IMG/VR virus record: IMGVR_UViG_3300042691_041259
Span: 1-64,000 of that record
Length of the DNA stretch: 64,000 nt
Strand: one strand, 5' to 3'
From: a virus
Part shown: positions 6,292-64,000 of the stretch, one piece after another
How positions within the stretch are numbered: the first letter of the stretch is position 1
Layout: every line of letters begins with the position of its first letter
Made by a program: the position numbers and the translations under genes
Notes under the pieces: model-generated
Databases searched by the model: none
What the model saw: the letters and a program-made list of their open reading frames with translations, nothing else
What the model was told of the DNA's origin: nothing

Positions 6292-6300
6292 CTATATATC
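6292..6300 (-). promoter_or_regulatory. GATATATAG late-promoter-like motif upstream of the T9SS-cargo operon
   Basis: GATATATAG on the minus strand, 67 bp before the ATG at 6225. The same nonamer stands upstream of seven other minus-strand genes or operons, nearly all for virion proteins. The rest of the 6226-6452 divergent gap is AT-rich, contains short open stretches without coding character and presumably also holds the plus-strand promoter of the subtilisin gene, which I could not pin down. Confidence 0.5.
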
Positions 6301-6452
6301 ACAGTGATTCTGGGCCGAGTGTGAATTTTACCCGTAGAATATATAGAATGCGTAAACAAACCTCCACCCGAGGTTATACTTATATCTTTTTAATGCACTT
6401 TTATCTTGTGCAAAACCTACACTTTTTTCAACCTCAAAAAACAAAAAAACAA

Positions 6453-10502: not shown

Positions 10503-12311
10503 TTATCGTATTAGTGTTACTATTCCACTTTGTTCTTTGTTAAATCCATCACGGTCTCTATATTTTACAACCCAGTTGTATGTATCAGTGGGTGGGTAAT
10601 ATCCGGTTCCGGAATCGCCGGTCCAAATAAGATTTGAAGATTCGTATATTGGTGCACCCCAACGATTAAAAATTGTCATTTTTGGATAGTACGCAGATAA
10701 AGCCGTTATCCTAAAAACATCGTTAATTCCATCACCGTTTGGTGTAAAAGAGTTTGGAGCATAAAATCTTTCGCAAGAAGTTGTGCTTATACTTATTTCT
10801 TGTGTGCTGCTTTGACAGCCTATTTCATCAATTCCATAAACACCTATGACATAGGTATTTGTGGTATCATACCATTCTACTGTAAAAACATTTCCATCTG
10901 TACTTTGTAATGAATTGTCAATTGACCAATAATATGAAAAGCTTCTGATATCATCTGCAACATATCTTTGGCTTGGCGAGTCCAAGCAGAGATCCAGCTC
11001 TTGTTTTGTATAACTTATGTTAGGCGCCTGGTATAAAGGCTCTACCGTTACATCAATACTTTTGCTAACATCGCATCCGTAAATGTTGGTGAGATACTCA
11101 GGCCAATAAACTCCTGGCTGGGAGCCTACAAAAACGTTTCCGTTTACATAGTCTCCAGTCCAGATTCCGCCTATAGGAAGAGCGCTTAAATTGGCTGATT
11201 GATTATAGCAAATTCTATAGGAGCTGCTGATTTCAATTTCAGGAACAACCAGTTCCACGTCGCAAGTTTTAAGTGTGCTTTCGCATCCTTGCGGCGTAAT
11301 CTCTTGGACAGTGATTGTGTATGTTCCGGGAATCTCCCCCCAGAGTATTTCACAGTTTGATGTTTGATCCGTGGTAACTAGGCCTCCGCCTGACAGATGC
11401 CAATCGTAAATAGAGAACTGGCTTCCTGTGACTGCGTAACCAACCTCGGATCCTGTACAAGTAGTATCAGGACATGGTATTAGATTGTGAGTAATATCTC
11501 CCATACTAAAGTATCCGCAAGAGCCATCATCACAGCCTGCCAGTATATCAAAATTGCAAGCACCTGGATCTGTGCATCCACCATATGTACAACTGCCATC
11601 ATCGCAAAGAGCGGCTGGGTTAAAGTTGCATGCAATTGGATCTATGCAATCGGGAAAAGAGCAGCTTCCGTTATCACAGTCCGCTGCAGGATTGTAATTA
11701 CAAGCTGTGGCATCGGTGCAGCCCGCGGTAAGGCAGCCAATTGTTCCGCCAAAAATAGGAAACTCCGGATCGAAGCACATTTCAGTTCCCCAACTACCCA
11801 TACTACCATCAGCAAATGGTGTAACGCCAATTGTTAGATCAAGCGGAACACCAACATTTGCCACAGTCAAAGAAGCACAAAAATTCCAAATGCAATCACC
11901 CATCATACAGTAGTCTCCCCAGTCATTTCCGGGATTTCCATCGGTTGGACCGGTAGGGCCTTCAAAGAAATAACCAGGTCCTGCGGTAATTCCTGTTGCA
12001 TCGGAAGTAACGTTGTCTACCCATAGCCAAGTTCCACTAGCATCGCCATCAGCATCGGAAGGCGGACTAACTGGAACCACGGATTCCCAGCCTTCGCCAA
12101 GGGTTAAACCAAATCCTTCAAACCAATTGGATCCTTGAGCATTTCCATTCCACCCATCTTGGGTAACACAAAGTTCCACTACCGTACCTGGTGGGTACGT
12201 GTTATCAGGGTTTGGTGGAGTGTCGAGTACAAAGGACAGATTCCCTGAGCACTGTGCACAACTGACCAGGCAGGAAATTGTGAGTCCTACCAAAAGAATT
12301 AGTTTTTTCAT
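10503..12311 (-). CDS. Secreted Cys-rich-repeat protein with T9SS type B C-terminal domain
   Basis: A 602-aa product with a signal peptide (MKKLILLVGLTISCLVSCAQ, cleavage near residue 20). The N-terminal 190 residues are an unrecognised beta-rich module. Residues about 195-272 hold three repeats of the type GCTDxxACNYNPxAxCDxGSC, common in secreted proteins of marine Bacteroidetes. Ig-like segments follow, and the last 88 residues (FYAPNSFTPNGDGINDVF ... TIFNRWGAPIYES ... KEQSGIVTLIR) are the gliding-motility type B sorting domain recognised by T9SS. This is the clearest of the four sorting domains here. The upstream genes are a membrane-anchored protein and a nuclease-fold protein. Function outside the cell is unknown; adhesion is the usual inference. 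Confidence 0.85.
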   Translation of the reverse strand: MKKLILLVGLTISCLVSCAQCSGNLSFVLDTPPNPDNTYPPGTVVELCVTQDGWNGNAQGSNWFEGFGLTLGEGWESVVPVSPPSDADGDASGTWLWVDNVTSDATGITAGPGYFFEGPTGPTDGNPGNDWGDYCMMGDCIWNFCASLTVANVGVPLDLTIGVTPFADGSMGSWGTEMCFDPEFPIFGGTIGCLTAGCTDATACNYNPAADCDNGSCSFPDCIDPIACNFNPAALCDDGSCTYGGCTDPGACNFDILAGCDDGSCGYFSMGDITHNLIPCPDTTCTGSEVGYAVTGSQFSIYDWHLSGGGLVTTDQTSNCEILWGEIPGTYTITVQEITPQGCESTLKTCDVELVVPEIEISSSYRICYNQSANLSALPIGGIWTGDYVNGNVFVGSQPGVYWPEYLTNIYGCDVSKSIDVTVEPLYQAPNISYTKQELDLCLDSPSQRYVADDIRSFSYYWSIDNSLQSTDGNVFTVEWYDTTNTYVIGVYGIDEIGCQSSTQEISISTTSCERFYAPNSFTPNGDGINDVFRITALSAYYPKMTIFNRWGAPIYESSNLIWTGDSGTGYYPPTDTYNWVVKYRDRDGFNKEQSGIVTLIR

Positions 12312-21560: not shown

Positions 21561-22022
21561 TTACTCCGCCATGCGACGGCTTTCTGCCAGCCAGGTTTCA
21601 TAGCTCAGAACTCGCAGAGACTCATTGCTAATTTTAGGAACCACTTTGTTTACGTCAATTCCACCGGTGGCTTCAACCTCTTCGCCGTGCTCAATATATT
21701 TGAGAGCTGATGATGGATCGATTAGCACCTCTTCGCCTTCGTCAGTTAAGATCTTATAGGAGACAATTTCTCCATTCTGACGATTGATTTGTAAGACTTT
21801 CCCTTTCACAGACTTGTCGCTATTCACAACATCACCTTTAACAGCGTTACCAACTTTAATTGAGTTGATCTCTGCTGAGCCGTTCTTGGCAAAAGGCTTT
21901 TGTTCGAGCCTACCGTCTACCGGAAGAATCTGTACTTTAAATGCAGGATTGTTGGCAACCAATGGAGTCATTAGCGACCCGTTACCACTACCTACGTTTC
22001 TATTGGATATCGTTATTGGCAT
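21561..22022 (-). CDS. Hypothetical protein with SH3-like barrel segment
   Basis: A 153-aa product. Residues about 52-110 (INSIKVGNAVKGDVV, KGKVLQINRQNGEIVSYKIL, EEVLIDPSSALKYIE) look like a small beta-barrel, similar in pattern to the junction of the two ORFs near 61420. The C-terminus LSYETWLAESRRMAE recalls endings of phage head scaffold or core proteins, but this is weak. It overlaps the UVR-motif gene upstream by 23 bp. Confidence 0.45.
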   Translation of the reverse strand: MPITISNRNVGSGNGSLMTPLVANNPAFKVQILPVDGRLEQKPFAKNGSAEINSIKVGNAVKGDVVNSDKSVKGKVLQINRQNGEIVSYKILTDEGEEVLIDPSSALKYIEHGEEVEATGGIDVNKVVPKISNESLRVLSYETWLAESRRMAE

Positions 22023-38759: not shown

Positions 38760-41700
38760 TTAGCCAGCTACGAATCCACCTGAAGAAATTGTTCCAGTCT
38801 TCAAGATAGTGATTCTGTTGATGAATTTCTGCAGACCGCGTGATGGCTCGATTCCAACGTCGATGATACCGAAGTTTTGGTCGATCACAGCAGCGCTGTT
38901 GTTAGTTTCATCCATGATTACCTGGTAATCATAAATTCCTCCTGCATTTCTTACAGTGTCGAGGTAGTTTTCTACAATTGTACGAATCTCAAGACGGGTT
39001 GATGCGTCGTTAAATTCGAAGAGGTATTGAGCAAGTACGTCCTCAATAGCTTCAGATACAGTGATCAGAAGATCTCTAACGTGAAGGTTATTGAAAGCGG
39101 ACAGTGTTGTTTGATAAGCTGTCTGGTTAGCGAAGATCATTGGTCCAATTCCTTTCACAGTTACGATTGGGTTGATACCAAATGGCTCGAGGTATTCACG
39201 ATCCTGAAGCAAGTACTCAAACTCGAGACCTGCAAACTTTGGATTTGAGATAACCCCGCGACGTGGACCAGCAACGATTGAGTAAGGAAGACCTTGAATG
39301 AACTTTCTTACAAAGTTGTTAGATACGTCAGCCGCTGGTGGAATGCTCTTATTGGTGTTATCTTCACGAATAATGATATTCGGAGAGAATACGCCAATGA
39401 ACTTAGCACCATTTTCTTCATCAGGCAGAGAGAATCTAAAGCTTGGTCCAAGGCTAAGGTTACCACCTTCCGCGATATACGATGTATTCAAGGTTGGTCT
39501 TGGGTTACCCGCAGCTGGATCTGGAAGTTCGGTGAACCTTGGATCAGTGCTAGCAATGAACTGCTTGATTGATGGAGCGTTAAGAATTGCCATACATTTT
39601 TGACGATCTCTTGCAAGTCTTGCCAAGATAGATTTCGGTCCCATCTGTGGAGCGATACCACCATTAAAGGTATCAATCACATAACGGAAGGAAATAATAT
39701 CGCGGCTAGCGAGTGTCTTCGCAATGTTGGTATTCTCAAGTACACCATAGATTTTGTCAATCTGTGCGTCAGTGTTGTTTGGCAAATGGTAGTCGTTAAG
39801 GACGTAACCATTCAACAAAGTAAACTGCAGACGATCACAGAAAGTTTGGATCGGAGTGTACTTAGTAATAGTGTTTGTGGTAAAGTCAACCGCAGGTACA
39901 TCAAGTACAGTGTATTCGTATGTTACCACACCAGTTGAAGGATTTACCTTCTTGATTTTGTCAGTAATACGAGTCAATCTTGGAGTAGCCGAGTTATCTA
40001 CAATCAGATCGCCAACTGTAAGGTTAACAGAATCTGCTGCAGAAACCTGGAATTTCTTACCGCCAGATGAAAGGGTACCAATGATTGTAATGTTAGAACT
40101 GATGTTCTTTCCGGTTGCAGAGTAGAACGCCAAGTAGTTTTCCTCGGGAATTGCGTTATCAAACACGGTTCCATCAATGTAAGTTTCATCAAGAACTGCG
40201 TATGTAGCACTAGCACGTGTTACCAAATCGGTAGCGGTGTACTGTGTTACACGACAGCCGCTGAGACCGTACGCAATTTGCGAGTATACGTCCACAGAAC
40301 CTGTAGCCGCACCTTTGCTCCATCTTTTGGTAATACCAAGGTAGTTGAATTCCGAAGCACCGGTATCGTACTTTACGCTATCTCCATTAACAACCAAGTT
40401 TTGGTTAACGTTAATGTTCAGCTTAGAACCAGGATACGCTTCAACGTATTTCAAATCAAAAAGACCTGCGCCTTCTACATATTCGCCAGTAGCGTCGGAC
40501 TCCATGGTAAATGAAATACCGGATTGAACCAATTTTACCACAAAAGTATCTGCGCCCGCGCCAAGGTCACCGGTTCCAAGAGCCACTGTATTTGCGCCAA
40601 GTCCAGATACGAAAGCAACTTGTGCAACTCGAGCACCTGCCGCACTTCCAGTGTAAGTGATGTTTGTTATGTAAAACGGACCAGCACCGATAAGAACATT
40701 AGCCGATACAAAAGGTGTAATTGAGCCATTTTGATACAGTTCAACTTCTACTGAAGAGTAAATTTCACCAGTGCTATTGTCTGAAGGTACGCCAGCTGCA
40801 ACAAAAGTATTACCAATTCCGTCAAATGATTCCACGGTAGTGGTAGGATTGATTGCAAAAGTCAAGCTGTCTCCAAAGTCAACGCTGTCAAGAGTCAGAC
40901 CCAGGTTAGGAACCAGGCTATTTGCATTTACATCAGGAATTGCGGCAGGAACGTTTAAAAGATCTCCTTTAAAGAGAGTTACTTTGATATCGGTAGCCTG
41001 TACTACAGATTCAAAATCTGCAATGTCTAGACCGAGTGTTCCCCACTTATTGAAGTAATAAGGAGCGGCGTCATAGATGCCAGAAACTCCAGAGTCTTCA
41101 ACCGTGATAATGCCGCCGGCGTAAGAGGCTACTTGATAGTACTTTGCAAAGCCGGGAAACTGTACCAGGATAAAGTCTACATTTACGCCTGCAACAGGAG
41201 CGGCAGGTGTTAGCGTAGTGTCAGCTTCATCCTTAAATGTTCCTACTTCAATTTCGTTAGCTGTGCCAGGAATCAAAGTAGCTGTGGTAGTACCAATGAT
41301 GTTATCAAAGTAACCAACTTTCTTGTGAAGCGGTGAGCTCAATTGAATTTGCAATTCTGTGCCAGTGTCAATTACATTGTCAACTTTCACATAGTCATCA
41401 GGGCTTTCAGTAGCAAACGTGTTTACACCGTAAGTCTTGAATATAGTGTTATTTGAAATGTTATCTACCAAAAACTGGTATTGCGAAGGCAAGAACACTG
41501 CATCAGCTGGTTCAGGCTTAGGGATAACCAAAACGTTGTTAAAGTTACCGCTTCTGCCTCCAAATGGCTGTGATTTAACGTAGATCTGAACTGTTGAAGT
41601 TAACAGACCAGCACCTGCGCCATCATAGATAGTTACGCCATTATCTGGAGAATTTGCTGGATCCAAATCATCAGTTCCAACATATTCAAGAACATTTTTG

Positions 41701-42710
41701 ATTGGCGTGTTGTATGAAAGGAAGTCAATTACATCATCAGAAGTTCCAATCAGTTTATTACCGATTGTATCAATCTTGTGAATGCTGTTTAAGTAGTCTT
41801 CAATCTTTGTATTATTTACAGCAATGAAAACACCGGTAAGACCGATAGCAGCATTTACCAAGTTCTCAATGTATTGGTTAGTTCCTGCGTTGTCTACGAA
41901 GTCTGGGATGATACAACCAGTAAATGATCCTACCATTGTTACTCCGTCCAAAGAAAGGAACGCGTCCAATTTATCAGTACGAATACCGCGAAGGTCAAAG
42001 TACTTTGAGAATGTTGGGTCCTGAGTTAAAACTCCCAAGTTTGTCCAGTCGCCTTCAACGATAATCAAATCGAGGAAGAAGTCAGACAAGTAGTCATTTT
42101 CACCCATGTAGTCAGGAACATTACCAAGACCATAATAGTCTTTTGCTGGAATGTTGTACTGCGTAGCATTAACCGACTTGCGAACGATAATTGAAAGAGG
42201 AGCTTGTGAAAGGTTTACTACAGTGAACAGATAGTCTTTGTTGAGTGGAGTTGCATCCTGAGTTGCAATCACGTACTCTGTGTCTGGGAACCAGAAGCGC
42301 TCTTTGTTGTAGAACGATGTTACCAAAGCTCTGGTAACAGGTCCATTGCTTTCGTCGGAAGCAAGTGCAAAGCTGCGATAGTTAGTTGTGTCTCCGCCTT
42401 CGCTGATAGGTGTGCTCTTCAGCGGCATGAGATTCAGTGCAAAAATTGGACCTACTGATAAGCAGATTTCCATTGCACGGTGGAAGAAAGATCCACGCTT
42501 TTCTAGGTATGCATCAATTAAACCGAAGGTTCTGCGGCATGTGTTAACATCCCTTAAAAACACCGGTGCATTGATAGGACCTATTCGGGAGAATCCAACC
42601 ACCAAACGGATAGTTTGGGTAGTTACTACAATTCTCTCCGAGGAGTCGAATTCTACAGTGTAGACTCCTGACGCCTTAAATTTGTTTAGGTCAAGACTGA
42701 TTTTAGCCAT
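38760..42710 (-). CDS. Tail sheath protein (gp18-like), enlarged to 1316 aa
   Basis: The contractile sheath. The N-terminal part (VYTVEFDSSERIVVTTQTIR and RLVVGFSRIGPINAPVFLRD) and the C-terminal part, roughly 970-1316 (GGIAPQMGPKSILARLARDR, VKGIGPMIFANQTAYQTTLS, VSEAIEDVLAQYLFEFNDAS, PSRGLQKFINRITIL), match T4-like sheaths, which are about 660 aa. The extra length lies in the middle, about residues 370-960, a beta-rich region that reads like several Ig-like domains and would project from the tail surface. A GATATATAG motif lies 37 bp upstream. Located between terminase and tube, as in T4. Confidence 0.9.
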   Translation of the reverse strand: MAKISLDLNKFKASGVYTVEFDSSERIVVTTQTIRLVVGFSRIGPINAPVFLRDVNTCRRTFGLIDAYLEKRGSFFHRAMEICLSVGPIFALNLMPLKSTPISEGGDTTNYRSFALASDESNGPVTRALVTSFYNKERFWFPDTEYVIATQDATPLNKDYLFTVVNLSQAPLSIIVRKSVNATQYNIPAKDYYGLGNVPDYMGENDYLSDFFLDLIIVEGDWTNLGVLTQDPTFSKYFDLRGIRTDKLDAFLSLDGVTMVGSFTGCIIPDFVDNAGTNQYIENLVNAAIGLTGVFIAVNNTKIEDYLNSIHKIDTIGNKLIGTSDDVIDFLSYNTPIKNVLEYVGTDDLDPANSPDNGVTIYDGAGAGLLTSTVQIYVKSQPFGGRSGNFNNVLVIPKPEPADAVFLPSQYQFLVDNISNNTIFKTYGVNTFATESPDDYVKVDNVIDTGTELQIQLSSPLHKKVGYFDNIIGTTTATLIPGTANEIEVGTFKDEADTTLTPAAPVAGVNVDFILVQFPGFAKYYQVASYAGGIITVEDSGVSGIYDAAPYYFNKWGTLGLDIADFESVVQATDIKVTLFKGDLLNVPAAIPDVNANSLVPNLGLTLDSVDFGDSLTFAINPTTTVESFDGIGNTFVAAGVPSDNSTGEIYSSVEVELYQNGSITPFVSANVLIGAGPFYITNITYTGSAAGARVAQVAFVSGLGANTVALGTGDLGAGADTFVVKLVQSGISFTMESDATGEYVEGAGLFDLKYVEAYPGSKLNINVNQNLVVNGDSVKYDTGASEFNYLGITKRWSKGAATGSVDVYSQIAYGLSGCRVTQYTATDLVTRASATYAVLDETYIDGTVFDNAIPEENYLAFYSATGKNISSNITIIGTLSSGGKKFQVSAADSVNLTVGDLIVDNSATPRLTRITDKIKKVNPSTGVVTYEYTVLDVPAVDFTTNTITKYTPIQTFCDRLQFTLLNGYVLNDYHLPNNTDAQIDKIYGVLENTNIAKTLASRDIISFRYVIDTFNGGIAPQMGPKSILARLARDRQKCMAILNAPSIKQFIASTDPRFTELPDPAAGNPRPTLNTSYIAEGGNLSLGPSFRFSLPDEENGAKFIGVFSPNIIIREDNTNKSIPPAADVSNNFVRKFIQGLPYSIVAGPRRGVISNPKFAGLEFEYLLQDREYLEPFGINPIVTVKGIGPMIFANQTAYQTTLSAFNNLHVRDLLITVSEAIEDVLAQYLFEFNDASTRLEIRTIVENYLDTVRNAGGIYDYQVIMDETNNSAAVIDQNFGIIDVGIEPSRGLQKFINRITILKTGTISSGGFVAG

Positions 42711-52710: not shown

Positions 52711-55700
52711 TTAATAATTTTGAACGTATGATCCATAGTAAGATGTTCCATCGTACACAAAGGTATAGATGTCAGTCTTATTGACAGTAGGTGTCATGGT
52801 AGGTGTTACGCCACCTGCCCAAATCACTGTTCCTGGCCATGTTACTGTGAAAGAAGAACTTGCGTTCTGCTTTATTATGAATATGTAGGTTCCGCCTGCA
52901 TTTGGATTTGTAAACGCAAATGTGGTTGAAGCGTTCAGCGTATATGATTGAACGTTTCCACTATCAAAGTCAACAGTGGTAGAGGCTGTAGTGTTTCCGT
53001 TGGCATCAATTACTACGTATGCTTGTCCTGTGACTGCCGCCTTTCCGGTAAGAGAAAGAACGTTTCCGTCAAATGTAAGGTTAGTTTCTGCATTAAGAAC
53101 TCCGGATGTTCCTGTTGCGGATAAGACTCTGTTATCCGCATCATTATTAACAGTTACCAAACCGCTGGTTCCAGAGCTTCCGCTTGAGCCAGATGTTCCA
53201 CTAGAGCCAGATGTTCCGTCAATTCCACTGGTCCCACTTGAGCCAGAGGTTCCGTCAATTCCACTGGTCCCACTTGAGCCAGATGTGCCTGATCCACTAG
53301 TGCCACTTGTTCCGCTTGAGCCAGAGGTTCCAGAGCTTCCGCTTGTGCCAGAGGTTCCTGAGCTTCCACTAGTTCCATTTATTCCAGAAGTTCCGCTTGA
53401 GCCAGAGGTTCCTGAACTACCGCTTGTTCCACGGGTTCCGCTTGAGCCGCTTGAGCCAGATGTTCCGCTTGAGCCAGATGTTCCGCGTGTTCCGCTAGTA
53501 CCGCTCGAGCCAGATGTTCCACTTGAACCATTTAATCCAGGAGTCCCTGGATCTCCTGGATTTCCAGAAACTCCGCTTGTCCCGCTTGAGCCAGAGGTTC
53601 CAGCCTGTCCCGTAGTTCCCGATGTTCCACTTGAGCCAGAGGTTCCGCTTGAGCCAGAGGTTCCGCTTGAGCCAGAGGTTCCTCGAGTACCGCTAGTTCC
53701 ACTTGATCCCGATGTTCCCGAAGATCCTGTTGTTCCACTAGTTCCTGAGCTTCCACGAGTTCCACTGGTTCCTGAACTTCCACTAGTTCCGGAAAAACCA
53801 GAAGTTCCCGAGCTACCGCTTGAGCCAGAAGTTCCGCTTGAGCCAGAGGTTCCTGAGCTTCCATTAGTACCGGATGTTCCCGAAGATCCTGTTGTTCCAC
53901 TAGTTCCCGAGCTACCGCTGGTCCCGCTTGAGCCACTGGTTCCTGAACTACCGCTTGTTCCGCTAGACCCGCTAGTACCATCTATGCCACTGGTTCCGCT
54001 AGTACCATCTATGCCACTGGTTCCACTAGAGCCGGATGTTCCAGAAGTTCCGCTTGAGCCAGAGGTTCCGCTTGAGCCAGAGGTTCCGCTTGAGCCAGAG
54101 GTTCCTGAACTTCCACTAGTTCCATTTATTCCAGAAGTTCCACTTGAACCAGATGTTCCTGAGCTTCCGCTCGAGCCCGATGTTCCGCTTGAGCCTCTAG
54201 TTCCAGAAGTTCCGCTTGAGCCAGATGTTCCGCTAGAACCAGATGTTCCAGAACTTCCACTAGTTCCATTTATTCCAGAAGTTCCACTTGAACCAGATGT
54301 TCCAGAACTTCCACTAGTTCCATTTATTCCAGAAGTTCCACTTGAACCAGATGTTCCGTCAATTCCGCTGGTTCCGCTGGAACCAGAGGTTCCATGTGTA
54401 CCAATACCGCTAGTGCCGCTTGATCCAGAGGTTCCGCTGCTTCCACTAGAACCTGAGGTTCCCGAGCTTCCGCTGGTTCCACGCGTTCCACTAGTTCCCG
54501 AACTTCCGCTAGTACCGCTACTTCCACTGGAACCGGAGGTTCCGCTTGAACCTCGGGTTCCCGAGGTGCCAGAACTACCACTAGTTCCGTGTGTACCAAT
54601 ACCACTAGTTCCGCTAGAGCCAGATGTTCCGCTAGAGCCAGATGTTCCGCGTGTTCCACTAGATCCAGAAGTACCACTAGTGCCACTTGATCCAGAGCTT
54701 CCGCTGGTTCCGCTTGATCCTCTTGTTCCTGATGTACCGCTGCTTCCGTTGGTTCCGCTTGAGCCAGAAGTACCGCTTGAGCCAGAAGTGCCGTGAGTTC
54801 CAATTCCGCTAGTTCCGCTTGAACCGCTCGAGCCAGAGGTTCCGCTCGTACTGCTACTTCCACTGGTACCGCTAGTTCCATCAATACCTGAAGTACCCGA
54901 TGTACCATCAATACCGCTAGTTCCGCTGGAACCTGAAGTTCCGTGAGTTCCAATTCCGCTTGTACCGCTGCTTCCGCTTGTTCCGCTTAAGCCAGATGTT
55001 CCTGAGCTTCCGCTTGTTCCGCTTGAGCCAGATGTTCCTGAGCTTCCACTAGTTCCACGTGTTCCACTAGTTCCTGAGCTTCCGCTAGTTCCCGAGCTTC
55101 CACGTGTACCGCTAGTTCCCGAACTTCCACTAGTTCCATGAGTACCGATACCACTAGTTCCACTAGATCCAGATGTTCCTCTAGTTCCGGAAGATCCACT
55201 AGTTCCTGAGCTTCCACTAGTTCCACGTGTTCCACTAGTTCCTGAGCTTCCGCTAGTTCCCGAGCTTCCACGTGTACCGCTAGTTCCCGAGCTCCCACTA
55301 GTTCCGCTTGAACCAGCTGTTCCGCTTGAGCCAGAAGTTCCGGAGCTTCCACTAGTACCGGATGAACCTGAAGTTCCGCTTGATCCAGACGTTCCTGAGC
55401 TTCCGCTGGTTCCATCAATACCGCTGGTTCCTGAAGACCCATCAATACCGGATGTTCCCGAGCTTCCGCTGGTTCCTTCGGTTCCGCTAGTTCCCGAGGA
55501 ACCGCTTGTTCCATCAGTTCCGCTTGTTCCATCAGTTCCCGAGGAACCGCTTGTTCCATCAGTTCCGCTTGTTCCATCAGTTCCACTAGTACCGTTAATT
55601 CCTGAGGTTCCGGAAGTTCCGTCAATTCCTGAGGTTCCACTGGTTCCGTCAATTCCTGATGTTCCGCTTGAACCGGAGGTTCCTTCAGTACCACTAGTTC

Positions 55701-57111
55701 CTGAAGATCCGCTTGTGCCATCTGTTCCTGAAGAACCACTAGTGCCATCTGTTCCTGAAGAACCACTAGTACCATCTATGCCGCTGGTTCCGGAAGTTCC
55801 ATCAATTCCTGAGGTTCCGCTGGTTCCATCAATTCCACTGGTTCCTGAAGACCCACTTGTTCCTTCAGTACCGCTAGTTCCGCTAGTTCCATCAGTTCCG
55901 CTGGTTCCGCTAGTTCCATCAGTTCCGCTGGTTCCATCAATACCTGAAGTTCCGCTAGTTCCGTCAATTCCTGAGGTTCCACTGGTTCCGTCAATCCCTG
56001 AGGTTCCGCTAGTTCCATCAATCCCTGAGGTTCCGCTAGTTCCATCAATACCGCTGGTTCCACTTGATCCGCTAGTTCCATCGGTTCCGGAGGTACCGTC
56101 AATACCGCTAGTTCCCGAAGTTCCATCTATTCCGCTGGTTCCCGAAGTTCCATCTATTCCGCTGGTTCCGGAGGTACCGTCAATACCGCTAGTTCCAGAG
56201 GTGCCATCAATACCGCTAGTTCCCGAAGTTCCATCTATTCCACTGGTTCCACTGGTGCCATCAGTTCCCGAACTACCGCTTGTTCCACTGGTGCCATCAG
56301 TTCCTGAACTGCCACTAGTACCATCGGTTCCAGAAGTTCCATCTATACCACTTGTTCCGCTAGTTCCGTCTATGCCACTAGTTCCAGAAGTCCCATCTAT
56401 CCCAGAGGTTCCCGAGCTTCCACTAGTGCCGCCGCCTGCCGCTCCAAATAAATTTACTTCCCAACTTGTATGACTGCCAATACCAGAAGATGATGTAACA
56501 TCCACGGAAAGGCTTCCTGTAAGCGGATTATATGTTGTTACAGATCCTTGCATATAAGATGAAGGAGTACCTGTAAGAGCAATTATGACAGACTGTGAAG
56601 TTGAATATGCTAATCCCGGATCAACTGTTAGAGAAATGATCCCGGTTCCTATAGTTAAAGGACTGGTTGAATTTGTTTTATATTTGTCTCCGCTTAAACC
56701 CGAGCTTCCGCTGGTTCCATCAATACCTGAAGTTCCACTAGAACCTGAAGTTCCACTGGTACCTTCAGTACCTGAAGTTCCACTAGAGCCACTGGTACCA
56801 GAAGATCCTGAACTACCCGAAGTTCCGGAGGTGCCATCAATTCCGCTTGTTCCGCTGGTTCCGTCTATACCTGAAGTTCCTGAAGAGCCTGAAGTTCCAT
56901 CAGTTCCCGATGTGCCTGAAGATCCTGAAGAGCCCGATGTCCCTGAGTTTCCTGAAGATCCTGAAGTTCCGCTGCTACCACTGCTTCCTGCGGTTCCAGA
57001 AGTACCTGCTTGTGCCAGCGCTTGAAGATAAAGAAGGTTATCATCCATCTCGCGGATGGTAAGCTTACTTCCTTTTGCGTTGGGACCGTATTCTCTTGTG
57101 ATTAATGGCAT
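52711..57111 (-). CDS. Collagen-like Gly-X-Y fibre protein, 1466 aa
   Basis: Residues 1-36 are a non-repeat head (MPLITREYGPNAKGSKLTIR and on). From about 37 to 1310 almost every third residue is Gly, in triplets GTS, GSS, GID, GTR, GTD and GIN, interrupted once by a normal segment at about 140-225 (LTIGTGIISLTVDPGLAYST and on). The C-terminal 150 residues (LNAETNLTFDGNVLSLTG ... YTFVYDGTSYYGSYVQNY) form a beta-rich trimerisation/tip domain. Phage fibres often use Gly-X-Y triple helices; here Pro is nearly absent and Thr/Ser fill X and Y. A GATATATAC motif lies 22 bp upstream. The Ser/Thr density makes it a plausible glycosylation target. Confidence 0.88.
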   Translation of the reverse strand: MPLITREYGPNAKGSKLTIREMDDNLLYLQALAQAGTSGTAGSSGSSGTSGSSGNSGTSGSSGSSGTSGTDGTSGSSGTSGIDGTSGTSGIDGTSGTSGSSGSSGTSGSSGTSGTEGTSGTSGSSGTSGIDGTSGSSGLSGDKYKTNSTSPLTIGTGIISLTVDPGLAYSTSQSVIIALTGTPSSYMQGSVTTYNPLTGSLSVDVTSSSGIGSHTSWEVNLFGAAGGGTSGSSGTSGIDGTSGTSGIDGTSGTSGIDGTSGTDGTSGSSGTDGTSGTSGSSGTDGTSGTSGIDGTSGTSGIDGTSGTSGIDGTSGTSGIDGTSGTSGIDGTSGTSGIDGTSGTDGTSGSSGTSGIDGTSGTSGIDGTSGTSGIDGTSGTSGIDGTSGTSGIDGTSGTDGTSGTSGTDGTSGTSGTEGTSGSSGTSGIDGTSGTSGIDGTSGTSGIDGTSGSSGTDGTSGSSGTDGTSGSSGTSGTEGTSGSSGTSGIDGTSGTSGIDGTSGTSGINGTSGTDGTSGTDGTSGSSGTDGTSGTDGTSGSSGTSGTEGTSGSSGTSGIDGSSGTSGIDGTSGSSGTSGSSGTSGSSGTSGSSGTSGSSGTAGSSGTSGSSGTSGTRGSSGTSGSSGTSGTRGTSGSSGTSGSSGTRGTSGSSGTSGIGTHGTSGSSGTSGTRGSSGTSGSSGTSGTRGTSGSSGTSGSSGTSGSSGTSGLSGTSGSSGTSGIGTHGTSGSSGTSGIDGTSGTSGIDGTSGTSGSSSTSGTSGSSGSSGTSGIGTHGTSGSSGTSGSSGTNGSSGTSGTRGSSGTSGSSGSSGTSGTSGSSGTRGTSGSSGTSGSSGTSGIGTHGTSGSSGTSGTRGSSGTSGSSGSSGTSGSSGTSGTRGTSGSSGTSGSSGSSGTSGSSGTSGIGTHGTSGSSGTSGIDGTSGSSGTSGINGTSGSSGTSGSSGTSGINGTSGSSGTSGSSGTSGSSGTSGTRGSSGTSGSSGSSGTSGSSGTSGINGTSGSSGTSGSSGTSGSSGTSGSSGTSGTSGSSGTSGIDGTSGTSGIDGTSGSSGTSGSSGTSGSSGTSGSSGTSGTTGSSGTSGTNGSSGTSGSSGTSGSSGSSGTSGFSGTSGSSGTSGTRGSSGTSGTTGSSGTSGSSGTSGTRGTSGSSGTSGSSGTSGSSGTSGTTGQAGTSGSSGTSGVSGNPGDPGTPGLNGSSGTSGSSGTSGTRGTSGSSGTSGSSGSSGTRGTSGSSGTSGSSGTSGINGTSGSSGTSGTSGSSGTSGSSGTSGTSGSGTSGSSGTSGIDGTSGSSGTSGIDGTSGSSGTSGSSGSSGTSGLVTVNNDADNRVLSATGTSGVLNAETNLTFDGNVLSLTGKAAVTGQAYVVIDANGNTTASTTVDFDSGNVQSYTLNASTTFAFTNPNAGGTYIFIIKQNASSSFTVTWPGTVIWAGGVTPTMTPTVNKTDIYTFVYDGTSYYGSYVQNY
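53160..57000 (-). repeat. Tandem Gly-X-Y coding repeats (9-bp and 18-bp periods)
   Basis: The DNA is a mosaic of 9-bp units (plus-strand form CCRCTNGTTCC and variants) coding Gly-Thr-Ser, Gly-Ser-Ser and Gly-Ile-Asp. Larger blocks are repeated, for example in the stretches near 54200-54360 and 55000-55300. The repeat creates long spurious ORFs on both strands and is a likely site of length variation and of assembly error. A non-repeat interruption lies at about 56430-56690. Confidence 0.9.
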
Positions 57112-57120
57112 TTGTAGTCC

Positions 57121-57594
57121 TTATTTTCGAGCGTATATATCATTAAAGGTATCAGTTTTTTCTATCACGGACCACGTCATATCGGAAAGAAGTTTTACTG
57201 ATGCAATAAAAATAATATCTTGGCGGTTCCACGCCAAAGGCTCAATCATAGAAAGAAATGTTGTTCCGTTTTCTCTAGTATATAAGTAGTATGTGTGTCC
57301 ACATTCAGGTTTAAACCGCAGTTCTGCCTGGTAGATTATGATAGAAATAAGTGCTCTTTCTTCCAGCTCCATGTACTGCTTTTTAAGCAGTTCTACTTGT
57401 TGGAGTATTTGAGCCTTTTGTGCTTCCACTTGCTCACTCATAGCAGTCATAGACTTGCTAAGTATTGCACCCATTTCATTAGGTCTAAAAGAAGGAGCCC
57501 CTATGGTGTGGCCATAGGGGAGCAGTCCTGGAAATATCGGTAATTGATTTTCGTCTTTTTGAGTAGGATCCATTTCAAAAGAATTAGATTCCAC
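57121..57594 (-). CDS. DUF2452-family protein
   Basis: A 157-aa product. LPYGHTIGAPSFRPNEMGAI (25-44), a helical middle (QILQQVELLKKQYMELEERA), then IYQAELRFKPECGHTYYLYT, and VKLLSDMTWSVIEKTD match the DUF2452 family of Bacteroidetes. Function unknown. It overlaps the portal gene end by 11 bp. A strong hairpin (see findings) lies within it. Acquisition from the host is plausible because DUF2452 is mainly a cellular family. Confidence 0.7.
   Translation of the reverse strand: MESNSFEMDPTQKDENQLPIFPGLLPYGHTIGAPSFRPNEMGAILSKSMTAMSEQVEAQKAQILQQVELLKKQYMELEERALISIIIYQAELRFKPECGHTYYLYTRENGTTFLSMIEPLAWNRQDIIFIASVKLLSDMTWSVIEKTDTFNDIYARK
57133..57141 (-). promoter_or_regulatory. GATATATAC late-promoter-like motif upstream of the collagen-like fibre gene
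   Basis: GATATATAC on the minus strand, 22 bp before the ATG at 57111, inside the last codons of the DUF2452 gene. It differs from the other copies only in the final base. Confidence 0.5.
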
Positions 57595-59188
57595 CCATGC
57601 CTGAAGCTTGTTGAGCCGCTTTCAAAATAGCGTCATTTTTGATTTGAGCTTCTTCTTTGTACGCTTCGTTACGATCCATTTCCAATTTGGTAAGTCCTAA
57701 GTATTTTTCAATCAAGAATCTTGGATCAAAGTATGGAACTTGCTGCATCATACCTGAAGGATCCGGCACATTCTCAGTAATTCCCATCATGGTTTGAATT
57801 ACGCTAGATCTCTTATCCATTACTTCCATTTCTTTCATTTCCTCAAACATATTGTCTGTACGGAATTTCAGAGCTAGGGCAGACTTAAATAATTCGTCCT
57901 CGGCCAGATCTGGATGATTAAGACCGATTTGTATGAATACCGGTTTGATAAGAATTTCTTGGAACATTGAACGTAAACGATTGATAAAGCGTGCAAACCT
58001 TATTTCGTCTCGAGCCATTCCGTCAGAACTAATGCTGAATGATCCGCCATCTTGAGTTCGGTCAAACCGCGAAAACGGAATTTTTGAGTCAACCTTCAAC
58101 TTATCTTCAAAGTATTTCAATGCGTCAGTATCACTTAGATCATAGCCGTCTCCACCGATAGTTTCAATCTCAGGCTGTTCGCCATTCTTGGATGGAAAGA
58201 GATAGTTTTTATAGAACTGCATTGCAGGCTTTCCGTTTACCGTCATCTCGCCAGAATCATAGTTAAGAGATACGTCTTCCTTATAGATGGCCATCATTTC
58301 TGCCAAGCTTTCTTTAGCCTTTTGAGGCGACTTGGTTCCGATAGGTACTACCATCTTTAATCGGAAACTTGAGTTCATAATGTTCCAAATAACACGGCTG
58401 TTCTCCATAATACGGAGAAGATTAAAGCTTCTTACCAATCTTTCTGTATACGATACGCGACCTGTGAAGTTACCTTTGGCATATGATATGTAAATGATCT
58501 GTGAATCGAGGAGGACTCGTTTCATAGCAGGAATGTCTTCGTACTGTACCCAGATCTTACGGTATACGTTGTCCCCAGATTTTTCCACGCCTGGACGAAG
58601 TGAAGTGGCATCAAGTTCTTTAAAACCAATAACGTTCTTTCCTTCAGGATCATAAATAATTTCAAATGCAAGGAATCCATCAATCAGCAATTGTCTGAAA
58701 TAACCCCAAGCATCGTGACCTTCATTAAAGTGAAAGTGAGCATAAATCTTTCTAAAGGCAGTTCCAATCTCATCCACAATTTCTTTGGAAGTATCAGGAT
58801 CCAGAATGCCTTTTAACAAAGAGGTGTCCACTTCCGCAAAATAGTTTGAATCATCAAATACAATTGCTTCATCAGCCACTGTATCAAGAATGAATTCAAT
58901 TTCAGGGTTCATTGAAAATTTTCTCAAATAGTCCCGACGAGACTTATAGTCTTTGTCAAAGAACGCAATGAATTTTTTCTGACCAACATCGGTCAGTGCT
59001 AGCGAGTAGAGAAACTCTTCAGGTAGATACCCTTGAAGTCCAAACTCAGCCTCGGTTACACCGACTGCTCTTGATTGCTTTACTACCATATCCTCGTACT
59101 TCATTCCGAGAGCTGATAGAGTTTTTAAGCTTTTTGATATTTGGCCAAATATAGGATTGACTCCTACTCTGTCAATAAAACCTGCCAT
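57584..59188 (-). CDS. Portal vertex protein (gp20-like)
   Basis: A 534-aa product (T4 gp20 has 524). SRRDYLRKFSMNPEIEFILD followed by TVADEAIVFDDSNYFAEVD, then DAWGYFRQLLIDGFLAFEII, a long central domain and KVDSKIPFSRFDRTQDGGSF are portal blocks of T4-like phages. It forms the dodecameric ring through which the terminase packages DNA. It follows a 242-aa gene of unknown function and the gp4-like gene. Confidence 0.92.
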   Translation of the reverse strand: MAGFIDRVGVNPIFGQISKSLKTLSALGMKYEDMVVKQSRAVGVTEAEFGLQGYLPEEFLYSLALTDVGQKKFIAFFDKDYKSRRDYLRKFSMNPEIEFILDTVADEAIVFDDSNYFAEVDTSLLKGILDPDTSKEIVDEIGTAFRKIYAHFHFNEGHDAWGYFRQLLIDGFLAFEIIYDPEGKNVIGFKELDATSLRPGVEKSGDNVYRKIWVQYEDIPAMKRVLLDSQIIYISYAKGNFTGRVSYTERLVRSFNLLRIMENSRVIWNIMNSSFRLKMVVPIGTKSPQKAKESLAEMMAIYKEDVSLNYDSGEMTVNGKPAMQFYKNYLFPSKNGEQPEIETIGGDGYDLSDTDALKYFEDKLKVDSKIPFSRFDRTQDGGSFSISSDGMARDEIRFARFINRLRSMFQEILIKPVFIQIGLNHPDLAEDELFKSALALKFRTDNMFEEMKEMEVMDKRSSVIQTMMGITENVPDPSGMMQQVPYFDPRFLIEKYLGLTKLEMDRNEAYKEEAQIKNDAILKAAQQASGMGGI

Positions 59189-59207: not shown

Positions 59208-59936
59208 TTATCCTCTTCTATTGTTATACTTTCTCTTGTCTTCTGGTCTTAACAGCGGAGGCTGCTTTCGTATTAGATTTCTCCGCTCTAATAAGTACTC
59301 TTTATGTATCTCGCCAAGAGACTTTCCTACAATATCTTTTGTCTGTATGAAAGGGATCCATTCCCAATCATCATATTCCACAATAACATTTTGGCTCATA
59401 TTTTGGCCAACTATGTAATTGCGCATCGCAAACTGATAACCAATTTGTCCTACTTTATTAAAGATCTTAAAGGTCTGTACTATGTCTTGCAATACTATTA
59501 AGGCTCTTTTAATAAAGGTAACCTGGTCAGTTTCGCTGGTTTTTTTATACGCCTGATCCAGATCGCCTTTTACCGAATTGTAATAGTATTCTAAAGTATT
59601 TACTCTGGCTATTTCCGGTAAAAAGTTTAAATTGATGCCTGTCACAATTCGATTTCCAGTGCTTTCAGCCATCCACTCTCCACAGCAAAGTATGATAGGA
59701 CGCTTATCATAGTAGTCCAAAATTTCTTTGTATACCGGATCATATCGAAAGGTGTAAATCTTTCCAGGTATGAATTGTCTTAAAGACTTTCCTTTAAGAC
59801 GTTCTGTTGAATCAAGGAATCCCTTGTCAACAAAAGGATCTTTAAAGTACTTGTTAAAAAAGTATGGATAAGCTTCCTTTTTCATTTGAGGACGCTCTTT
59901 CATATTTTTTTGATACGCCTTTGCTGGACTAATCAT
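59208..59936 (-). CDS. Conserved hypothetical virion-assembly protein
   Basis: A 242-aa product. IPGKIYTFRYDPVYKEILDY, then RPIILCCGEWMAESTGNRIV and TGINLNFLPEIARVNTLEYY, form a pattern I have seen in T4-like phage proteins of unassigned role. The C-terminus (LEYLLERRNLIRKQPPLLRP-like) is basic. It is coupled to the gp4-like gene by TAATG and precedes the portal gene by 19 bp, so a head or packaging role is likely. Confidence 0.5.
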   Translation of the reverse strand: MISPAKAYQKNMKERPQMKKEAYPYFFNKYFKDPFVDKGFLDSTERLKGKSLRQFIPGKIYTFRYDPVYKEILDYYDKRPIILCCGEWMAESTGNRIVTGINLNFLPEIARVNTLEYYYNSVKGDLDQAYKKTSETDQVTFIKRALIVLQDIVQTFKIFNKVGQIGYQFAMRNYIVGQNMSQNVIVEYDDWEWIPFIQTKDIVGKSLGEIHKEYLLERRNLIRKQPPLLRPEDKRKYNNRRG

Positions 59937-60439
59937 TAGGAATTAACTCTTTTGAACAGAAACTCCTCAGTAACAATGATGAAGTTCTTATTATTAAGCC
60001 GGGCAAACTCTTGCGCTGCTTTAAATTTTGCCCGGTTTACCAACCAATCTGCTGCCATTTTATTGTATTCCTTTAGTCTCTTTATAGTAGTCAGACCTTC
60101 TTTCATTGAAGGCTGCTTTAAAGATTTTGAAGGTTTGATTTCTACCAGGTATTCAACTGGGCCATCCGGCTTTTGCAACTTCATATAAAAGTCTACAAAA
60201 TAACTGTGTTCCCTATTGTCCAAAGGACTAATGTATGGGATCGGAACTGGCTCAGAAGACCAAGAAATAACTTCAGGGGTTGAGTCGCAATATTTGCAAA
60301 AACGATACTCCCAAGAAGAACGATAAATGATTTTTGATGGATCACCTATATACTTCTCAGGAATGTTAGGCACAAAATAACCCTGCCGAAAACGGCTTCT
60401 CTTATGAGGTGGATTTGTTTTGTTGGTTTTTGCTCTCAC
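59936..60439 (-). CDS. Head-completion nuclease (gp4-like)
   Basis: A 167-aa product starting with GTG, in a GTGA overlap with the gp55-like stop. GYFVPNIPEKYIGDPSKIIY, then RSSWEYRFCKYCDSTPEVIS, then WSSEPVPIPYISPLDNREHS and YFVDFYMK...EYLVEIKPSK match T4 gp4 (gp50), a head-completion protein with a TnsA-like PD-(D/E)XK fold (Glu43, Asp and EIK residues). It trims or seals the filled head. Confidence 0.85.
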   Translation of the reverse strand: MRAKTNKTNPPHKRSRFRQGYFVPNIPEKYIGDPSKIIYRSSWEYRFCKYCDSTPEVISWSSEPVPIPYISPLDNREHSYFVDFYMKLQKPDGPVEYLVEIKPSKSLKQPSMKEGLTTIKRLKEYNKMAADWLVNRAKFKAAQEFARLNNKNFIIVTEEFLFKRVNS

Positions 60440-60873
60440 AGTGTAAACACATTATCGTGACTGAGCGATACTTTTTCTCCAGCAGACAGCGGATGCAATT
60501 TACGCCATCCTTTTGCAAAGCCGTTTTTGATCATTTGCGTAAAATATGCAAAAGGATCTTTTGATTTTTCTGGATTGTAACTTCTCCAGTAACGTACCAC
60601 GTCCATCATTGCAAAAGCAATACAGTCTTTTCGATCTTCTTCATCACGATATCTCAATTTTTTAGAAGCTTCGCGAGCCATAGTCTGAAACATCTCAATT
60701 GCTCGAGGAGTCAGCGCATCTTTTTCGCGAGACCTTAAAACTTCTTCTCGAAGTTCTTTGGGATCAACGTAATAGTTTGATGGATTCTTTTTTACGCGGC
60801 CGGTGTTGCTGCGTTGGATGTCTCCCTTTCCTTCTCCAGGGAGTTCTTGTAGGTTGTTAGTTCCGTTATGCAT
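60436..60873 (-). CDS. Late-transcription sigma factor (gp55-like)
   Basis: A 145-aa product. NPSNYYVDPKELREEVLRSR, EMFQTMAREASKKLRYRDEE, DRKDCIAFAMMDVVRYWRSY and NPEKSKDPFAYFTQMIKNGF, then AKGWRKLHP, match T4 gp55, the small sigma-like factor that reads late promoters (TATAAATA in T4) with the help of the sliding clamp. It overlaps the upstream gene by 82 bp, unusually far; no later Met gives a complete gp55. It would be the natural reader of the GATATATAG or TATAAATA motifs in this window. Confidence 0.85.
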   Translation of the reverse strand: MHNGTNNLQELPGEGKGDIQRSNTGRVKKNPSNYYVDPKELREEVLRSREKDALTPRAIEMFQTMAREASKKLRYRDEEDRKDCIAFAMMDVVRYWRSYNPEKSKDPFAYFTQMIKNGFAKGWRKLHPLSAGEKVSLSHDNVFTL

Positions 60874-61421
60874 GAGTCTATTGCTTCTGATGAGAATGAA
60901 GTTCCTTCATCAACGGTTATTTTAAGTTCTTGAAGTTGCGCAATAGCGTTTTCGACTTGAACCAACACGTTGTCCATTTTACCGGTTACTTCATCTGGTT
61001 TGTTTTCATCTGTTTTCGGATTGTTTTTTATATCCGTTTCAGAATTGTATACACCAGCTTCAAAAAGTTTTACGTCGGACTTCTTAACGCTTGCCAACTT
61101 CTTATTAGGCAATATGATATCCACATTTTCGTTGTCGGCTTTTGATGTGTAGTCAAGAGCTTTAATCTGGACTTCGGTTCCAGCTGGAACCCCTTGTACC
61201 GCAACGCTAAGTTTTGCTTTTACGTACCCCTCTTGTTTTTCCTCTTTAATAGCAACGGTCCCGCCATCCCCTTGTGAATTGATTTCAACAGGATTGCCGG
61301 ACTTTGCTCGATGCTTTTTGTCTAGGGGCTGAAGGAGTTTAGCCTCTACTTTAGAGGTATCTCCTTTATCATCGACTACAGTAATGATTCCACCAGCGGA
61401 GTCAACCGCGGTAATGTTCAC
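60792..61421 (-). CDS. Virion-associated hypothetical protein, possibly the frameshifted end of the upstream ORF
   Basis: A 209-aa frame from GTG at 61421 (MNITAVDSAGGIITVVDDKG), which overlaps the upstream TGA as GTGA. The start is preceded by nine A. The first 35 residues look like the second half of a KOW/SH3-like barrel whose first half (GFNVGDTATLGKKK) ends the upstream ORF. The rest has a Gln/Glu-rich helix (NVLVQVENAIAQLQELKITV). It may be expressed alone by GTG start, as a -1 frameshift extension, or both. Confidence 0.55.
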   Translation of the reverse strand: MNITAVDSAGGIITVVDDKGDTSKVEAKLLQPLDKKHRAKSGNPVEINSQGDGGTVAIKEEKQEGYVKAKLSVAVQGVPAGTEVQIKALDYTSKADNENVDIILPNKKLASVKKSDVKLFEAGVYNSETDIKNNPKTDENKPDEVTGKMDNVLVQVENAIAQLQELKITVDEGTSFSSEAIDSCITELTTYKNSLEKERETSNAATPAA

Positions 61422-61430
61422 TTTTTTTTT
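61418..61430 (-). other. Candidate -1 ribosomal frameshift site (A AAA AAG)
   Basis: Minus strand: nine A, G, TGA at the end of the 524-aa ORF. Codons are GGA AAA AAA AAG TGA. A -1 slip on A AAA AAG would continue as GTG AAC ATT ACC, exactly the frame of the next ORF, giving a product of about 733 residues. A single missing A in the sequence would produce the same appearance. Confidence 0.5.
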
Positions 61431-62992
61431 CCTAGCGTAGCGGTGTCGCCTACATTAAAACCAAGGCCTTCAGATACTGTGGTGGCTGCGGTTTCAGCGT
61501 TGGCAAGCTTAGCGTATTCAGACTTAAGAAAATTGATCTCTTCATCAATTGCAGAGATGAGATCTTTTACCTCAGCCTCTTCGCTCATTCCGTCAGGAAG
61601 ATTTTCAAGCTTTGAACGTTGCTCAGTAAGATGAGCTATTGACTGTACAAATTCTTCTTTAAGTGTAGACATCTTTTTCAATTCCTTTTCCTCCTCATTT
61701 AAGAGTTCGGCAAATGTAGAAGAAATGTCAGTCTTCATGAATTCCATTACAAGATTCTTGGTTTGAGTAGCATTGCAATCTGTGTAGAATACGCTTTCAT
61801 TCATCAATTTGTTTGACTTGTTGATGAAGATATTTTCTCCCAAGAAGAATAGTGTCATTGATTTGCCAGCGTCAGACTTTGATGTGATAGTCTTGGCAAA
61901 ATCCATTTCAAAAATATTGTTCCAGTTTTCAGAGATAGCAAAAATAGCATTAATGTTTTTGCTTTCAGTCATTCTGAATACTCCAGCATTAAGATATACT
62001 TTATGAATGTCTTCTTTATTTACAACCTTTCCATTGATCTTTACTTGAGACTCGCTGATTTCAATCACTTTGTCTCCTGAGTATAACTTAATCAAGCCTT
62101 CAGCCACAATTACGTTATCCCAGGTAAGAATATCAGCTACTGCTTTGAAAGATTCTGGAAGAGCTGTTATCTCATCGCTTGATGCAATGGCAATAGAATT
62201 ACCTTCTTTTTTGTATACTTGTGAACCTGCAAGGAAAAACTCGCTGGATTCTGCTATGAAAACTGGTGAATATACTCGGTTGATATTGCAGCTAGTATCG
62301 CTTGCTGCTATATGGAAAGCTCTTTCAGATTCAGAAAGAAACTTATGCAGATTTTTTACATTTGGATCAAATAAAAACTGTGAAGCCTTTTCCATGAGCT
62401 TTACTCTTGAAGAAGAATTGCGATTGTTCAAATACTCATCTAATTGAGCAGACATTGCTGGCATTAAATAGTTTGAAGTAGAACGCTTAATGTTTTCTAC
62501 AATTTTGTAGATTGTAATTTCTTCACGGAATTTCTCAGAATTCTCTGTCAATGATTTCAAACATTCATTAACAGTAGGATCCCAGTTAAATGGTGTGAGG
62601 GAAGCGATAACGCTTTCAATAATCATCCATTCTGGTTGTGCAGTCACAGCTTTAAGCTTTTCAAACATATATGAGAAAGCTGGATGCTTTGAGATCTCAG
62701 ACTCGCCAATAACAGCAAATGTCTTCTTTACTCCGAGATTGTTTAAGTTTTCGATTCTCTTTTCGATAACGTTCATTGAAATGAACTGCTTTGCAGACTC
62801 ATCCTCAATTTTTGACAGACCTTCAATAAGTGTGTTCAAAATATCTGCCTCAAGAACTGAGTTTTCTTCTGCAGAAATAGCATAGGCGTTATTGCTGTCG
62901 ATTCGACGGATAGCCTCGTTGCATGCATTAAGTACTGCGGTTGACGTTGTTTTGGTCTGCAGTGTTTCAATTCTATTTCTTAGTGTAGACAT
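61418..62992 (-). CDS. Virion-associated hypothetical protein (524 aa) ending at a slippery run
   Basis: A helical, acidic 524-aa product without a recognised family. Residues 1-230 are helical; about 250-400 have beta features (VYKKEGNSIAIASSDEITAL, KVIEISESQVKINGKVVNKE); 430-500 form coiled coil (LTEQRSKLENLPDGMSEEAE). It ends GFNVGDTATLGKKK at GGA AAA AAA AAG TGA. A GATATATAG motif lies 31 bp upstream. Position near portal and gp4 genes suggests a head or internal virion protein. Confidence 0.5.
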   Translation of the reverse strand: MSTLRNRIETLQTKTTSTAVLNACNEAIRRIDSNNAYAISAEENSVLEADILNTLIEGLSKIEDESAKQFISMNVIEKRIENLNNLGVKKTFAVIGESEISKHPAFSYMFEKLKAVTAQPEWMIIESVIASLTPFNWDPTVNECLKSLTENSEKFREEITIYKIVENIKRSTSNYLMPAMSAQLDEYLNNRNSSSRVKLMEKASQFLFDPNVKNLHKFLSESERAFHIAASDTSCNINRVYSPVFIAESSEFFLAGSQVYKKEGNSIAIASSDEITALPESFKAVADILTWDNVIVAEGLIKLYSGDKVIEISESQVKINGKVVNKEDIHKVYLNAGVFRMTESKNINAIFAISENWNNIFEMDFAKTITSKSDAGKSMTLFFLGENIFINKSNKLMNESVFYTDCNATQTKNLVMEFMKTDISSTFAELLNEEEKELKKMSTLKEEFVQSIAHLTEQRSKLENLPDGMSEEAEVKDLISAIDEEINFLKSEYAKLANAETAATTVSEGLGFNVGDTATLGKKK

Positions 62993-63057: not shown

Positions 63058-64000
63058 TTACTTGACAGTTATGTGACCATCGATAAGCCCGCCTTGTATT
63101 AAAGTCAAAGGCGAGGATAAGTTAGCGTTGTTTGTTATTTGTATTTCGTTAGTTGCTTCCATTATTTGCTCAACAGTACTACCGATAGGAATACCAGCTC
63201 CTACAACAGGCATACCTATATAGATACCAAGAGCGTCAAGGTTGCCCGCTATTGATATGTTTGGTATAAGATTTGTGAGCATATTTGACCCGTTAGTGGT
63301 CTGTGCCTGAAATTCTATAGGCTTTCTTAAAATTTGCGAGACGCTTTCATTATTTGCGTCCTCTATCAAAAGCTCAAATTTGTTTACCGGAGTAGGATCA
63401 AAATCTGCGCCAACCGCATATACGGTAGATCCTATTATCGTGCCAGCAACTACGTTTGGCGATATTGTTGGCGCTATAGTTGCATGAGACGTATCATTAA
63501 CTATAATGCTATCCGTTCCCAGGTATGTATAACCTCCATTAAGAACTATGATATTTTCTACGTTTCCAAGAGCATTGATGATTGCTCTTAACGAAGCGCC
63601 CTGTCCAGATTGCGTGCTTACAAAAGCTTTTGTTGTTTCTGGTTTGGTTTCCGCTCCACTTGTGTTAAAGAATGGGATGTTCCATGTATAAGACCCAGAG
63701 TTTTTTAGATTTTTGACAATTGGAATCCAATCTGGATTGCCCACTCTTCTATAGTATATGTTAACTCTGGTAATAGGGCCTGTGTTTGTCCATGAAATAA
63801 TCGATTGGCCGGAAGAAAAGTAAATTTCACCATGGCTTGGCGAAGTGATTTCAAATCTTGGAAGATTGTATTTTTCATCAGATTTCCACTCAATGTTTGG
63901 TCCGCCTGGGTAATTCATACGGTTTCCGCCAAATCTTTCCGTAGTTGGATCGGTAACTGGGAAGTATGTTTCCAATTGCAATGGAACGTTGAAAGCAATT
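63058..64000 (-). CDS. Putative virion surface protein with Kre9/KNH-like Ig domain, 5' end outside window
   Basis: The frame is open through the right edge of the window, so the N-terminus is missing. About 50 residues in from the edge, FEITSPSHGEIYFSSGQSII then SWTNTGPITRVNIYYRRVG and GSYTWNIPFF match the Kre9/KNH-like Ig fold that binds or spans surface polymers in Bacteroidetes proteins. Near the C-terminus, LGIYIGMPVVGAGIPIGSTV is the GxxVxGxGIPxGTxV motif also found in the gene at 22983. Likely a virion surface or fibre component; it ends just before a GATATATAG motif. Confidence 0.55.
   Translation of the reverse strand, partial: IAFNVPLQLETYFPVTDPTTERFGGNRMNYPGGPNIEWKSDEKYNLPRFEITSPSHGEIYFSSGQSIISWTNTGPITRVNIYYRRVGNPDWIPIVKNLKNSGSYTWNIPFFNTSGAETKPETTKAFVSTQSGQGASLRAIINALGNVENIIVLNGGYTYLGTDSIIVNDTSHATIAPTISPNVVAGTIIGSTVYAVGADFDPTPVNKFELLIEDANNESVSQILRKPIEFQAQTTNGSNMLTNLIPNISIAGNLDALGIYIGMPVVGAGIPIGSTVEQIMEATNEIQITNNANLSSPLTLIQGGLIDGHITVK

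Follow-up and report, generated by a model that had tools for sequence, protein, structure and literature searches.

A conserved A_AAA_AAG slippery site and a probable programmed -1 frameshift near head-assembly genes in a large uncultivated phage

In Escherichia coli, A_AAA_AAG is the shift site of dnaX, where it is very shift-prone (PMC5009743, PMC4066793); the heptamer lies in frame, with a hairpin downstream and a zero-frame stop nearby, and the shift gives the short form of the protein. Phages offer further examples of genes with two products. In structural proteins such as those of T3/T7 gene 10, Lactobacillus phage A2, and the Listeria phages A118, A500 and PSA, some of the product is extended by C-terminal domains through a shift located at the gene's 3' end, and in related proteins the domain is encoded in frame. 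In the lambda G/GT tail assembly chaperone, a -1 shift takes place near the 3' end of a small gene located between the major tail protein and the tape measure. Slippage can also occur during transcription: nine-A runs slip, and the dnaX gene of Thermus thermophilus uses one (PMC5009743), while Citrobacter tssM uses a run of 11 (PMC4256274). In both of the latter genes, at least nine A's placed just before a stop lead to two length variants.

The locus described here lies within a window of 64,000 nucleotides (positions 1 to 64,000 of the 202,505-bp IMG/VR record IMGVR_UViG_3300042691_041259), and all of its parts are on the minus strand. A zero-frame ORF of 524 codons (61418-62992) ends CTA GGA AAA AAA AAG TGA, exactly as the original prediction had read it. 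Its last codons hold a run of nine A's (A9, 61422-61430) followed by G (61421), so that the heptamer A_AAA_AAG (61421-61427; class described in PMC5009743 and PMC4066793) is in the zero frame and the stop codon TGA (61418-61420) is directly 3' of it. A slip of one base back enters a second ORF of 209 codons (60792-61421) at a GTG codon (61421-61419). The predicted entry point is thereby confirmed, as is the length of the long form, since 524 and 209 residues make 733. Such runs are rarer in this DNA than dinucleotide shuffles predict: it is the single A9/T9 run in the 64-kb window, where the shuffles give 8.0 ± 3.9, and no other A9G occurs in the entire record. The one other A9 of the record, at 195147, lies outside any long gene; an inverted repeat adjoins it, and it resembles a terminator. 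Against a codon-aware null the contrast is smaller, as 1.3 ± 1.0 A9 runs are expected when 22 ORFs are recoded synonymously; thus, the mere presence of the run is unremarkable, and it is its conservation that is remarkable. A run of eight A's before ATGA (29059-29052) was considered as a second slip site and rejected, since it merely separates GGAGG from the ATG start codon in front of which it lies, that of a guanylate kinase gene.

This organization resembles E. coli dnaX in its in-frame heptamer, in the nearby zero-frame stop and, for the closer relatives of the window sequence, in a candidate downstream hairpin at similar spacing. Unlike dnaX, it belongs to a phage gene, the shift leads to the long form, the A run is longer (A9), the hairpin is missing in some lineages, and there is no conserved Shine-Dalgarno-like stimulator upstream. 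As in the phage structural proteins mentioned above, domains would be added at the C-terminus of part of the product and a related protein has them in frame, but here the shift falls inside a small barrel rather than between domains. Moreover, the -1 product has no Pfam Ig match and is thus not Ig-like by Pfam. Lambda G/GT likewise has its -1 shift close to the 3' end of an assembly-region gene, but the gene order differs: the product here, of 524 residues, is much larger, has no sequence match and is encoded beside genes for gp55-, gp4-, gp2- and gp20-like proteins. The position of nine A's just before a stop is shared with T. thermophilus dnaX and tssM; in contrast to these, the run ends in an in-frame AAG and is followed by a covarying hairpin in the closer relatives. 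A literature search retrieved no report of recoding in this protein family.

An alignment with related phages, which the original prediction had proposed as a check, finds the split conserved in six lineages. Homologues of the zero-frame ORF were identified on 11 viral contigs (L001 to L006, L014 to L017, and L020; L017 and L009 are the same contig). Ten of them reach and carry the junction, and in the eleventh, L016, the gene is continuous. Together with the window, the ten fall into lineages of 35-89% identity to the window protein: the window with L001, L002 with L003, L017, L020, L004 to L006, and L014 with L015. In all six there are exactly nine A's and then a G, the A_AAA_AAG is in frame, a zero-frame stop follows at once or one codon on, and the -1 frame holds a homologous ORF in the same place, with a length of 208-209 or 154 codons. 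The junction reads GGA AAA AAA AAG TGA in the window and L001 (89% identity) as well as in L002 and L003 (64-65%), and GGA AAA AAA AAG TAA in L017 (64%) and L020 (62% over the 47 residues available). In the most divergent lineages, both at 35% identity, it reads CTA AAA AAA AAG GTA TAG (L004 to L006) or TTA AAA AAA AAG GCA TAG (L014 and L015). Around the run, 14 to 30 of 47 third codon positions differ between lineages; based on codon usage, the chance of finding GGA, CTA or TTA followed by AAA-AAA-AAG in all of them is p ~4e-7, a rough value that assumes independent lineages. The stop is itself preserved: among the sequences of the first group, a conserved Val is followed in the -1 frame by N, S, T or K, always with a codon that starts with A. 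This suggests that the short form, too, may be under selection. In L004 (6001-8352) and L014 (6001-8307), a helical domain is duplicated at the N-terminus, and the fetched stretches hold 784 and 769 zero-frame codons, respectively.

The frameshift is not universal: in the Prevotella Lak homologues a single frame encodes a very long, acidic tail, and A/T runs of at least six are absent around the place of the junction. The homologue of the Prevotella Lak megaphages is 26% identical; in Lak-A2 and Lak-B1 (L011 and L013), where TAG is read as Gln, the protein bears a highly Asp-rich C-terminal tail of ~1000 residues. The more distant relative L016 (IMG/VR 3300042691_053612) encodes the protein as a single ORF of 825 residues, in the same gene order as the window (a relative of the gene at 63058-63981, this gene, sigma factor, gp4 and portal). 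Similarly, the metagenomic phage LR756500 has a continuous ORF in the same neighborhood with a similar C-terminal domain.

The original prediction held that the junction splits one KOW/SH3-like barrel, and L016, continuous and syntenic, bears this out. A single local alignment to L016 takes in residues 1-619 of the joined window protein and runs across the junction at residue 524 (E 2e-65), and therefore the split barrel (61323-61456, minus strand, half in each frame) is considered real. A joined profile, built from the last 35 residues upstream of the junction and the first 60 downstream, matches residues 488-575 of L016 with a score of 15 bits; with either half by itself, no stretch scores above 6.3 bits. 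Alignments that placed the separate zero-frame and -1 pieces on L016 misplaced short pieces and were left out. AlphaFold models of the two halves, predicted separately, are of modest confidence (pLDDT 74.8 for the short form, with its last 17 residues below 50, and 64.3 for the -1 part), and they have strands on both sides of the junction at low confidence. The model of the -1 part contains strand groups of SH3 size. SH3 domains are among its Foldseek matches and are the best small-domain folds, with probabilities up to 1.00, although E is above 0.1 and none is significant. The proposed likeness to the protein encoded at 21561-22022 turned out to be weak: that protein is the best non-self match among 278 ORFs, but with E = 1.8.

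Downstream of the run, a candidate stimulatory hairpin (61394-61411 in the window, minus strand) begins 6-9 nt 3' of AAG in five of the six closer sequences (window, L001, L002, L003 and L017). Its stems are CCGCGG/CCGC(T)GG, CCGCAG/CTGCGG, CTGCGG/CCGCAG and CAGCAG/CTGCTG, with compensatory changes at two stem pairs that join third codon positions. Across the six aligned sequences, 94.4% of the stem is paired, against 25-56% for slid controls, and its covariation is 0.411 versus 0.172 ± 0.079, a level that 10 of 500 shuffles attain. The folding energy is below that of synonymous recodings with p = 0.07 in L001, 0.019 in L002, 0.004 in L003 and 0.01 in L017; the window hairpin is bulged (p = 0.17) and that of L020 is weak (p = 0.48). 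The same comparison yields no downstream hairpin beyond expectation in L004 or L014. Upstream of A9 no structure exceeds expectation, and inspection of the junctions by eye identified no conserved GGAG/AGGA Shine-Dalgarno-like stimulator, an optional element, at the usual distance.

Several explanations without any slippage were considered. The dN/dS of the -1 ORF is 0.054 between the window and L001 and 0.107-0.135 with L003 and L002, so it is under strong purifying selection. These values, together with a frame that is open for 154-209 codons in every lineage, speak against a fixed frameshift mutation after which the truncated protein alone is made and the -1 ORF decays; the existence of the continuous L016 would fit such a history, which is nevertheless scarcely credible. 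The continuous relative would equally fit a one-base homopolymer error in the assembly of what is truly one gene, and homopolymers are error-prone. The original prediction regarded this as the main alternative, but it is effectively excluded by the conservation: A9 is found in independent contigs of six lineages, including three near-identical ones (L004 to L006) and the pair L014/L015, and behind it the stop is kept in all, in the first group by the A-starting codon after Val. A further possibility is that of two ordinary genes with a four-base GTGA overlap, the second translated by termination-reinitiation. A GTG does lie exactly at the junction in the window, L001, L002 and L003, with AGGA or TGGA just upstream, yet outside these four sequences the explanation is contradicted. 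In L017 and L020 the codon is GTA, and the first 98 and 102 codons of the -1 frame, respectively, include no ATG, GTG or TTG, so that in these lineages the -1 ORF is reachable by slippage alone; in L004 and L014, where the codon is GGT or GGC, none of the three is present at the junction either. Thus, the GTG of the window is not what the family relies on. Considering also that the second ORF would start in the middle of a barrel, two separate genes are very improbable.

The alternative of most weight concerns the machinery that slips. RNA polymerase may add or drop A's on A9, and normal translation of the altered mRNAs would then give the long form. All lineages have exactly nine A's, one of which is the wobble base of the preceding Gly or Leu codon and is not required for A_AAA_AAG, and runs of this kind are used by T. 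thermophilus dnaX and tssM as described above. The extra A can also be explained by tandem ribosomal heptamers, A_AAA_AAA and then A_AAA_AAG. The run always ends in G, completing A_AAA_AAG, though this G also opens the next -1 codon. The covarying hairpin is located downstream, where it would not yet have formed while the polymerase is on the run, and therefore points to the ribosome; the region upstream of the run is without structure above expectation. We consider polymerase slippage unlikely overall, but it remains a serious rival, particularly for L004 and L014, because these lineages of 35% identity have no hairpin. Programmed frameshifting to a long form, as in the original prediction, is strongly supported by the conserved run, stop and -1 ORF, by the two lineages without a start codon and by the continuous L016; what slips is most likely the ribosome rather than RNA polymerase.

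Our preferred reading, with a probability of about 0.74, is that of one gene with two products, in which dnaX-like -1 ribosomal frameshifting on A_AAA_AAG would give forms of 524 and 733 residues. Most ribosomes would stop at the TGA or TAA behind A9 and release the 524-residue protein, and a fraction would slip back one base on the heptamer and continue to 733 residues, aided in the closer relatives by the hairpin. The ribosome, rather than RNA polymerase, would thus be what slips, and the short form would presumably be the more abundant one. In the long form the SH3/KOW-like barrel would be completed, with another barrel-like domain and a helical hairpin added. This reading assumes that A_AAA_AAG is slippery on Bacteroidota ribosomes. 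The two forms may take part in building the head or neck, in a fixed proportion to each other. A more speculative extension, which we regard as doubtful, is that the shift falls inside the barrel on purpose: the short form would have an unpaired barrel edge, short and long forms (or a partner) would complete the fold between subunits, and frameshifting would set the ratio of open to closed subunits in head or neck assembly.

The two ORFs had been called virion proteins, a designation that should be read as putative. Neither matches anything in Pfam, PHROGs or PDB sequence searches, the short form has no Foldseek match with E below 0.001 and hence no structural relative, the -1 ORF had no hit among phage records, and two scans of genome contigs yielded none. 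The neighborhood itself is one of head assembly. The next genes downstream, all on the minus strand and in conserved order, encode a gp55-like late sigma factor (phrog_234, 60436-60873), a gp4-like head-closure protein (59936-60439) and a gp2-like DNA end protector (59208-59936), and the T4-type portal protein gp20 is at 57584-59188. From this position, a role in head or neck assembly appears plausible. As called, the sigma ORF shares 82 bases (60792-60873, minus strand) with the terminal part of the -1 ORF. Its start may lie further in, because in L004 and L014 the homology to the gp55-like sigma factor begins at residue 34. Adjoining the portal gene is a 1466-residue fiber made mostly of collagen-like repeats (52711-57111, minus strand).

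As for the host, three window proteins (1926-3869, 4324-6225 and 10503-12311, minus strand) have the C-terminal signals of Bacteroidota type IX secretion (T9SS; PF18962 once and PF13585 twice, one protein with PKD repeats), and the portal is closest to those of LR756500 and Lak phages. Taken together, these features indicate that the host is probably a member of the Bacteroidota. The signal-bearing proteins are phage-encoded and apparently exported via the T9SS of the host. No lysyl-tRNA synthetase or DnaK was identified in the record, either of which would have linked it to the published moraphages. Two other genes of the window stand out. An 818-residue subtilase (Peptidase S8, 6261-8717) is the sole long plus-strand gene among minus-strand genes, and the tail sheath (38760-42710, minus strand) has 1316 residues, much more than usual, with its C-terminal third alone matching sheath families.

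In conclusion, the conserved programmed frameshift of this phage gene adds a new and well-supported example to a known class, and represents a deeply conserved recoding site adjoining the head-assembly genes of Lak-related large phages. Gene callers would give two unrelated short genes at such a locus, and thus the long protein would likely go unnoticed throughout this phage group. The lineages with a hairpin, those without it and those with a continuous gene form a natural series in which the gain and loss of frameshifting may be studied. Given the probable Bacteroidota host, the site would also allow ribosomal shifting on A_AAA_AAG in that phylum to be tested against the use of the A run by RNA polymerase.
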